A stretch of DNA of 64,000 nucleotides from Brevundimonas aveniformis DSM 17977 (lineage in GTDB: Bacteria > Pseudomonadota > Alphaproteobacteria > Caulobacterales > Caulobacteraceae): NCBI RefSeq assembly GCF_000428765.1, contig NZ_AUAO01000002.1, forward strand, positions 1 to 64,000. Direction: 5' to 3'. The notes under the pieces were generated by a model. The model was not told the origin of the DNA. It was given only the letters and a program-made list of their open reading frames with translations, and ran no database searches. Position 1 is the stretch's first letter; each line of letters opens with the position of its first letter. Below are positions 18,652-25,883 of the stretch, in pieces. A program made the translations under genes and the position numbers.

Positions 18652-18696
18652 TCAGAGGGCCAGACGGGTCCGGTCGGTGGGCGGACCCCGGGCGGG

Positions 18697-18801
18697 GCCA
18701 GCGTCTCTCCCTTCGCCGGCATGACCCGGATCAGGTTCGACCGGTCAGAGGGAGCACCCTCAATCTCAGCGACTCGCGCGTCGCCCCCGGGAGAACAAGG
18801 C
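18697..18801 (-). promoter_or_regulatory. TPP riboswitch controlling thiC
   Basis: On the minus strand the leader carries the thi-box landmarks in order: GGGGGCG, CTGAGA, a short GAGGGTGCTCCCTC hairpin, AACCTGATCCGGGTCATGCC and GGCGAAGGGAGAGAC, whose last bases pair with the GTTCTCCC start (P1). TPP binding is expected to lower thiC expression. The element ends about 60 bp before the thiC start, leaving room to sequester the ribosome site. Confidence 0.93.
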
Positions 18802-23847: not shown

Positions 23848-24468
23848 ATGAGCCTGACCCGACGAAACCTTCTAGGCGCGACCGGAGCCCTGACCGCTCT
23901 GGCTGTGGCCGGACCCGTTCTGGCCCAGACCGAACTGACGGCTGAGCAGCGCAGGCTGGTCGAGCGGGCCCAGACCTATATGAGCACCCTGCGCTCGGTG
24001 CGCGGGCGGTTCGTCGAGACGGGGCCACGTGGCCAGCGGTCGCAAGGGGCCTTCTATCTGCGCCGTCCGGGCCGGATGCGGTTTGAATATGACGCCCCTT
24101 CGCGACTGGTCGTCGTGGCGGACGGCGCTTTCATCCACCGCTGGGATCCGCGCCTGGAGGTCTATCAGCGCCTGCCGACCAACCAGACGCCGCTGAGCCT
24201 GTTGCTGGACAACAGTGCCGGCTTTTCAAATCGCTACATTCGCATCGAGGAGGTGGCGGCAACCTCGGACGGGTGCCAGATCCGGTTGCGTGATGCCCGG
24301 CGTCCGCGCGAGGGCTCCCTGACGCTGGTGTTTGGAGGCAGCACCTATCGTCTGCGCGAATGGACGGTGCGCGATGCCCAAGGGTCCGCCACCCGCGTCC
24401 AGCTGGCAACCATTACGCCGGTGTCGAATCTGGCGGACGCCCTGTTCCGCAACCCCCGACCTTCGTGA
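23848..24468 (+). CDS. lolA: Outer-membrane lipoprotein carrier protein
   Basis: Periplasmic chaperone that moves lipoproteins from LolCDE to the outer membrane. 206 residues with a twin-arginine-looking leader (LTRRNLLGATGAL) cleaved near LAQ-T. The LolA fold is shown by MSTLRSVRGRFVET, GAFYLRRPGRMRFEYDAPSRLVVVADG and the LPTNQTPLSLLL loop. ATG 23848 follows AAAGGAG; the longer frame from 23785 lacks a ribosome site. No LolB is adjacent. Confidence 0.92.
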   Translation: MSLTRRNLLGATGALTALAVAGPVLAQTELTAEQRRLVERAQTYMSTLRSVRGRFVETGPRGQRSQGAFYLRRPGRMRFEYDAPSRLVVVADGAFIHRWDPRLEVYQRLPTNQTPLSLLLDNSAGFSNRYIRIEEVAATSDGCQIRLRDARRPREGSLTLVFGGSTYRLREWTVRDAQGSATRVQLATITPVSNLADALFRNPRPS

Positions 24469-24505
24469 CTTTTTCGCTACGAAGGCGGGGCGTTCGGCGG
24501 CCGTG

Positions 24506-24533
24506 TTGACTTTTCCCTTGTCAGTGGCATAAT
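24506..24533 (+). promoter_or_regulatory. Strong sigma-70-type promoter between lolA and xth
   Basis: TTGACT (24506-24511), a 16-bp spacer and CATAAT (24528-24533) each match the consensus hexamers at five of six positions. This would start transcription near 24540, at the base of the first hairpin of the candidate RNA. Confidence 0.7.
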
Positions 24534-24539
24534 CATCAC

Positions 24540-24651
24540 AGACATCGAGCGGCGGTTCGGTGTCTCGTCGTCGGCAAGTCCCCTCCCGATGGCGCGTGAG
24601 AGACGACCCCCTCCGGCGCCCGGCTTGGTTTCCCGAGCCGGGCGCATTTTC
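24540..24651 (+). ncRNA. Candidate trans-acting small RNA with intrinsic terminator
   Basis: An RNA of about 111 nt is predicted between the promoter above and a strong terminator. It has a 5' hairpin with an 8-bp stem (24541-24548 with 24557-24564, one internal G-U pair), a middle region with single-stranded CCCCTCCC (24580-24587) and CCCCCTCC (24607-24614), and a terminator of 10 perfect base pairs (24616-24625 with 24636-24645) followed by ATTTTCTGTT. The C-rich runs complement Shine-Dalgarno sequences, as in several known alphaproteobacterial riboregulators. It could instead be an attenuator leader of xth, whose ATG is only 15 bp beyond. I cannot assign it to a named RNA family. Confidence 0.65.
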
Positions 24652-24666
24652 TGTTAAACGGGGTGC

Positions 24667-25461
24667 ATGCTGAGAATCGCGACCTGGAACATCAACTCGG
24701 TCCGCCTACGGGCGGATCAGGTGCAACGCTTCGTCACCGAACAGGCCCCGGACGTTCTGTGCCTGCAGGAGATCAAGTGCCAGACGGCGGAGTTCCCGTC
24801 CGCCGCCTTCAAGGCGGTGGGGATGCCGTACCTGCGGATCAGCGGTCAGAAAGGCTGGCACGGGGTGGCCATCGCCTCGCGCTACCCGATCACCGATGTG
24901 CCGGTCGTCAATGCCTGCCGAGAGGGCCATGCGCGCTGCGTGTCGGCCCAGGTTCAGGGAATCGAGATCCAGAATTTCTACATCCCCGCCGGCGGCGATG
25001 TGGCGGACCGGGAGCTGAACCCCAAGTTTGACCACAAGCTGGACTTCTATGAGGCCCTGACGCGCGAGATGGCGGCAAGGGACAAGCAGGCACCGCTGGT
25101 GCTGGCGGGGGATTTCAATATCGCGCCGGGCGAGAACGACGTCTGGAACCACCGCTATATGTCCAAGATCGTCAGCCACACGCCGATCGAGGTGGAGACA
25201 CTTCGGCGGCTACAGGCGGCGGGCGATTTCGCCGATGTGCTGCGCGACCAGATCCCCGAGCCGACCAAGCTGGCCAGCTGGTGGAGCTATCGCGCCCAGG
25301 ATTTCAGGAAGTCGAACCGGGGCCTCAGGCTGGACCACATCTGGACCTCACCGGGCCTGACGCCGCGGGTGATTGCGGGGTCCGCCAAGATCCACGAGGA
25401 TTGCCGCGCCTGGGAGCGTCCGAGTGACCACGCGCCGGTGACGGTGGATGTGGAGAGCTAG
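24667..25461 (+). CDS. xth: Exodeoxyribonuclease III
   Basis: AP endonuclease/3'-5' exonuclease for base-excision repair. 264 residues with TWNINSVRLR, the metal ligand in CLQEIKCQ, GWHGVAIASR, LAGDFNIAPGENDVW, RLDHIWTSP and the C-terminal SDHAPV. The ATG follows the terminator of the candidate RNA by 15 bp with AACGGGG as ribosome site, so its own promoter is unclear and it may rely on readthrough. The end overlaps the convergent vapC by 4 bp. Confidence 0.95.
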   Translation: MLRIATWNINSVRLRADQVQRFVTEQAPDVLCLQEIKCQTAEFPSAAFKAVGMPYLRISGQKGWHGVAIASRYPITDVPVVNACREGHARCVSAQVQGIEIQNFYIPAGGDVADRELNPKFDHKLDFYEALTREMAARDKQAPLVLAGDFNIAPGENDVWNHRYMSKIVSHTPIEVETLRRLQAAGDFADVLRDQIPEPTKLASWWSYRAQDFRKSNRGLRLDHIWTSPGLTPRVIAGSAKIHEDCRAWERPSDHAPVTVDVES

Positions 25462-25883
25462 CAGGCGATAGCGCTGATGTGGCCGGCGGCGGCATAGTCG
25501 AGCAGTGGTCGGTCACGCGTGACAAGCCGGTAGCCATAGGCGCGTGCCGTGGCGGCCAGGATACGGTCCGCTGGATCACGCAAGCGGGCATCCTCCAGCT
25601 GCGTCGATTCGACGAGAACGCTGGGCGGGAGATCGGCCAGGCCGATCCCTGCTTCCAGAGCGCTCTCGAACCAACGCAAAGGCGGCGCGGAGAGCACGAT
25701 GCGTCCTTTCGCGACGAGCATCCCGATTTCCCAAGCCGTGATCGGCGAGAGGAATGCGCTTCCAGGCTCGGCCTGCGCTTCCTGGAGGGCTGTCTCCGCT
25801 TCGGGTCGCAGATGGGCGCCACGGTCCATCAAAAGCACCGCGCAGGTATCCAGAAGGAGCGGTCTCAACGCTCGGCGTCCCAC
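25458..25883 (-). CDS. vapC: PIN-domain VapC-type toxin
   Basis: 141-residue PIN-domain ribonuclease, the toxin of a type II system. Acidic active-site residues are in LLLDTCAVL (Asp12), SPITAWEIGML (Glu), DPADRILAATA (Asp) and VTRDRPLLDY (Asp). It starts at GTG 25883, overlapping the upstream antitoxin by 19 bp; TTG 25868, which overlaps the antitoxin stop as TTGA, would give a more typical N-terminus. VapC toxins usually cleave tRNA or 23S rRNA. Confidence 0.88.
   Translation of the reverse strand: MGRRALRPLLLDTCAVLLMDRGAHLRPEAETALQEAQAEPGSAFLSPITAWEIGMLVAKGRIVLSAPPLRWFESALEAGIGLADLPPSVLVESTQLEDARLRDPADRILAATARAYGYRLVTRDRPLLDYAAAGHISAIAC

Follow-up and report, generated by a model that had tools for sequence, protein, structure and literature searches.

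RusT (CCNA_R0199) of Caulobacter crescentus is a 118-nt sRNA (Vogt et al. 2024, PMC11005374) whose gene lies in the lolA–xth gap on the plus strand. It is enriched more than 70-fold with Hfq and contains four stem-loops, the third of which (SL3) is the Hfq site. RusT acts through the conserved loop of hairpin 2 (nt 45–57), where the part played by C53 has been proven by compensatory mutation in two reporters, and the mRNAs that it represses include those of TonB receptors and OmpW. Northern blots show a free 118-nt RNA whose trans role is proven. The response regulator NtrX occupies the rusT promoter, and RusT is induced by iron starvation or zinc (PMC11005374).

The window considered here is a 64,000-nt stretch of the genome of Brevundimonas aveniformis DSM 17977 (contig NZ_AUAO01000002.1, positions 1 to 64,000). 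Its lolA–xth gap contains an element that had been described from its letters as a small RNA not assignable to any named family. We consider it very probable (roughly 0.87) that this element is the Brevundimonas rusT gene, encoding a stand-alone sRNA with its own promoter and terminator that would act as an Hfq-bound repressor of transporters through the loop of hairpin 2. The RNA is an orthologue of RusT, as follows from its place and strand between lolA and xth, from the covariance model R1 (described below), which links the window with the same locus in Caulobacter, from the agreement of the Caulobacter loci with the published length and C53 position, and from covariation. In the C. vibrioides loci, the distance from the conserved start to the U run is 118 nt, there are four hairpins, and nt 53 is a C within UAUCCCCUCCC. 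What was an orphan candidate can now be tested as an orthologue of a regulator that is already characterised. The coordinates of all features are collected in Table 1.

Table 1. Features of the lolA–rusT–xth locus, in window coordinates
Feature	Position	Strand	Basis
lolA, upstream neighbour	23848..24468	+	open reading frame
Whole element, promoter to terminator	24506-24655	+	lolA–xth gap
Promoter TTGACT-N16-CATAAT	24506..24533	+	10/12 matches
Dyad GTG-N10-CAC, from -10 to start	24524..24539	.	GTGRCAnTTTnRnCAC in relatives
sRNA, RusT orthologue	24538..24651	+	predicted start A24538; covariance-model match 24540-24651
Stem-loop 1, 10 bp	24541..24564	+	predicted fold
Stem-loop 2, seed hairpin	24566..24594	+	predicted fold and covariation
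Predicted seed for mRNA pairing, CCCCUCCC of loop 2	24580..24587	+	motif in homologues
GAGAGAC and C-rich stretch 5' of terminator	24598..24615	+	degenerate; corresponds to SL3, the Hfq site of RusT
Intrinsic terminator and U tail	24616..24655	+	13-pair stem
xth (exodeoxyribonuclease III), downstream neighbour	24667..25461	+	open reading frame

By tblastn, LolA adjoins xth in ~98 of 129 loci of the genus, and xth has one match in 130 of 131 Brevundimonas genomes. In many of these genomes repeated palindromic elements (type GCGCTATCGCTCGCGACGCGGTCGCTCGCTGCTTGAGCGC) lie between the sRNA terminator and xth (L042, L047, L060, L081 and others). A hairpin CCTTCGT...ACGAAGG at 24457-24487 overlaps the stop codon of lolA (z -2.7) and may represent the lolA 3' end or chance. 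Directly past xth, the minus strand carries a 141-aa open reading frame (25458-25883) whose translation, judged by eye only, resembles a PIN-domain (VapC-type) toxin. Elsewhere in the window, a TPP riboswitch on the minus strand (18691-18800) scores 68.6 bits, which passes the gathering threshold of Rfam.

The near-consensus promoter is found where it had been proposed, with TTGACT at 24506-24511, a 16-nt spacer and CATAAT at 24528-24533, and TG precedes the -10 element. The match is unique in 1.5 kb (one found against 0.1 expected in shuffles), and TTGAC and a GTG.CA-type -10 region are conserved across the family. The dyad GTG-N10-CAC overlaps the -10 element and the start; 75 of 81 loci keep its 16-bp spacing exactly, and it is a candidate repressor operator, possibly for NtrX. 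A literature search for the NtrX binding motif turned up the ChvI motif only. A further TGTGACATTCTCACAACAGGCAAG-like element 5' of the rusT promoter is conserved in Caulobacter and Phenylobacterium (L235, L234, L197 and others) and is absent from the window; it too is possibly an operator. The original prediction also proposed an RNA of ~111 nt starting near 24540. The prediction of a discrete RNA holds, with a corrected start and length: the start is placed at A24538 on the basis of an alignment with the 118-nt Caulobacter RNA, and the predicted transcript, ending at 24651, measures ~114 nt.

This RNA has a predicted folding energy of -61.2 kcal/mol (z = -4.6), and none of 200 shuffles is as stable; a longer form of the RNA gives a z of -4.3. 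The stable 5' hairpin that had been described is present, and compensatory changes are seen in all seven of its modelled pairs. Stem-loops 1 and 2 and the terminator are clear in the predicted fold, while SL3 is weak. The terminator stem (24616-24645) consists of ten consecutive Watson–Crick pairs, as first reported, followed by a G-U and two more pairs, 13 in all, and then by the tail ATTTTCTGTT; 97.9% of its cells are paired over 81 sequences. The statement that no open frame fits needs qualification, as small frames of 22 and 37 codons do exist. Neither is conserved, since Caulobacter has ATG AGA GAC TAG at that point.

Plain BLAST, which relies on DNA similarity, recovers three close relatives only. 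For this reason a synteny approach was used, in which the DNA upstream of xth was inspected across the genomes of the genus, and a pattern search identified the same element in 93 loci. These share a TTGAC promoter, a GTG.CA...CAC start region, hairpin 1, hairpin 2 with its C-rich loop, a GAGAGA stretch and the terminator. An alignment by MAFFT and RNAalifold misaligned hairpin 2, so the structure was set by hand on a homogeneous subset. The resulting covariance model, R1, draws on 15 Brevundimonas sequences and leaves out the window and the three relatives nearest to it. It matches the window with 36.4 bits (E=4.9e-8), which is the sole match at E<=1e-3 in that genome. Across the genus R1 matches 124 of 131 genomes, a few of them weakly; weak matches in G033, G122 and G124 (E 3e-4 to 9e-4) are counted as absent. 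It also matches the lolA–xth loci of Caulobacter (2.1e-6 for C. vibrioides DSM 9893 L235, and 2e-7 for both T5M6 L247 and C. zeae L234), Phenylobacterium and other genera.

In the 81 aligned homologues, standard pairs occupy 96.4% of pair cells, and compensatory changes occur in 21 of 23 pairs. This alignment, of the kind suggested earlier as a check, yields 276 double-change cells against 50.7 in shuffled alignments, a number reached in none of 500 shuffles; the alignment was fitted to the structure and is thereby biased in its favour, but the margin is large all the same. When the partners are slid by 1–3 columns, pairing falls below 48%. Six genomes (L136, L153, L147, L155, L099 and L090) have a lolA–xth gap of only 35–94 nt from which the element is gone. 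A covariance search of these genomes finds no copy anywhere in four and weak matches only in two, and they represent natural deletions that can be used for comparison.

The original prediction of two anti-Shine-Dalgarno loops is half right. The run CCCCTCCC at 24580-24587 lies in the loop of hairpin 2, and a UCCCC loop is present at this position in 81 of 81 homologues. The CCCCUCCC motif is the counterpart of the RusT nt 45–57 region with C53, a numbering with which the C. vibrioides loci agree. In part of the genus this loop reads CCCCUUCCC, and the perfect match to GGAGG is lost. The second run, CCCCCTCC at 24607-24614, lies in a weakly paired stretch 5' of the terminator and does not form a conserved loop, as a comparable C-rich run before the terminator is seen in only 5 of 81 relatives.

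Relatives of this RNA extend well beyond the Caulobacteraceae. A family-level covariance model (R2), which has the window in its training set, scores it at 58.2 bits and also matches genomes from a second family of the order, along with scattered members of the class. Nearly all of the better outside matches lie directly downstream of lolA, and in several xth comes next. These relatives show a form with two C-rich loops, including a second hairpin loop of type C7; hairpin 1 displays GCGUUGCCCCCCCGCUNGC and hairpin 2 CGCCGGAUUAUCCCCUCCCGGCG, and hairpin 1 of the two-loop form has compensatory changes in five pairs. A third model (R3), built from sequences outside the Caulobacteraceae only, has the window as its best match (35.7 bits, 1.1e-7) and also matches Caulobacter loci and two Hyphomonas loci between lolA and xth. 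At E<=1e-3, R3 has matches in 41 of 385 genomes of the class. Most of the stronger class-level matches have lolA and/or xth within 1.5 kb on either side, and these genes were not used in the search. Eight loci near which both lolA and xth are absent (L355, L360-L362, L370 and L379-L381) look like chance terminators, and one with xth nearby (L363) has no C-rich hairpin; none of these are counted.

Based on these observations, it seems highly likely that an old alphaproteobacterial sRNA family, one that Rfam lacks, has RusT as its Caulobacteraceae branch, and that in several bacterial families its members are encoded downstream of lolA and are often followed by xth. Outside the Caulobacteraceae this RNA would carry two C-rich loops (GCGUUGCCCCCCCGCUNGC and CCGGAUUAUCCCCUCCCGG), the first of which appears to have shrunk in Caulobacter and disappeared from Brevundimonas. 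RusT is thus far more widespread than the published Caulobacter-centred alignment. A literature search, with most subscription papers outside its reach, found an sRNA, lolA and alphaproteobacteria together only in the RusT paper. While RusT in Caulobacter is known, the lolA-adjoining relatives in other alphaproteobacterial families and the depth and synteny of the family are new. The class-wide relatives make it possible to model by covariance a family that Rfam lacks, and they point to the loop of hairpin 2 as its most constrained part.

Two other identities can be weighed against RusT. The element lies directly upstream of xth on the same strand, and in many relatives the terminator ends 14–50 nt before that gene, as would be expected of a cis-acting attenuator or leader in which an RNA begun at 24538 would either stop at the terminator or continue into xth. 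However, the distance from terminator to xth ranges from ~14 to >200 nt with unrelated filler, no competing antiterminator fold is apparent in the predicted structure, and the six genus members without the element have kept xth. The promoter, structure and terminator are thus maintained at a variable distance from xth and can be missing altogether, which makes an attenuator very improbable, and the free RNA seen on Northern blots and the proven trans role of the Caulobacter orthologue (PMC11005374) argue in the same direction. Membership in another C-rich alphaproteobacterial sRNA family (ar7, ar14 or GsrN) is more improbable still. Rfam does show a weak similarity to ar7 (18.6 bits, E=0.086) and ar14 (18.1 bits, E=0.17), but these scores fall far below the gathering scores of 60 and 58.8, and the Rfam search recommended earlier gives no family at gathering score for this RNA in the window, in the Caulobacteraceae or in the class-level loci. 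The window RNA is single-copy in its genome, and GsrN, in most Caulobacteraceae, is encoded next to ecfG/nepR/phyR rather than in a lolA–xth gap. The evidence for any of these three is much weaker than that for RusT.

With the RNA taken as RusT, its mode of action can be proposed by analogy with C. crescentus. Transcription would start at a sigma-70-type promoter belonging to the gene itself and stop at the gene's own terminator. The 3' part of the RNA is most likely where Hfq binds, and the GAGAGAC and C-rich stretch may have this role. The C-rich loop of hairpin 2 most likely pairs with G-rich ribosome-binding regions of target mRNAs, chief among which would be those of outer-membrane transporters, whose translation would be lowered. 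The promoter is probably held down by NtrX and released under iron limitation, as suggested by the Caulobacter work. The B. aveniformis genome encodes Hfq and the NtrYX system, in the order ntrY-ntrX-aminotransferase-hfq-hflX (identities from translations, with the C. crescentus order for comparison). The earlier description of a stand-alone, trans-acting riboregulator is thus borne out as to promoter, terminator, conserved structure and C-rich loop, and its trans role is carried over from C. crescentus.

An alternative is that the role of the RusT orthologue has drifted in Brevundimonas, where the loop could act as a general anti-Shine-Dalgarno sequence or on targets other than chiefly TonB receptors. 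The pairing energy of the seed is no better at 14 TonB-receptor starts than at 41 ordinary gene starts (p=0.83), and a genome scan for the complement of the extended seed finds no strong match (38 matches, against 55 for the reversed pattern). Since both are negative, the target class is taken solely from the Caulobacter work. Seed complementarity thus does not favour TonB receptors, of which this genome has 16 as against >60 in C. crescentus (PMC11005374), and the Hfq site is degenerate. However, energy alone often misses sRNA targets, and the seed loop and the promoter dyad are conserved across the family, so a change of role seems unlikely, although far less so than either of the other identities.

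In comparison with described systems, Rfam ar7 (RF02342) and ar14 (RF02344) are also sRNAs of alphaproteobacteria that end in a terminator hairpin and have C-rich loops, but the scores are ~18 bits where 60 and 58.8 are required, and there is no evidence of common descent. GsrN of the Caulobacteraceae (PMC5869019) is likewise a free-standing sRNA with an exposed C-rich loop; it differs in its locus, near general stress regulators in most species, and in its promoter, and is a different RNA. RusT shares with the window RNA the lolA–rusT–xth locus, the strand, the size (118 versus ~114 nt) and the order of hairpins, as well as the UCCCCUCCC loop in hairpin 2, the terminator, the TTGAC promoter and the GTG-N10-CAC dyad. 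The two differ in stem-loop 1, which in the window has another sequence and loop, and in SL3, which is degenerate throughout the clade of the window and in the window bears the second C-rich run.
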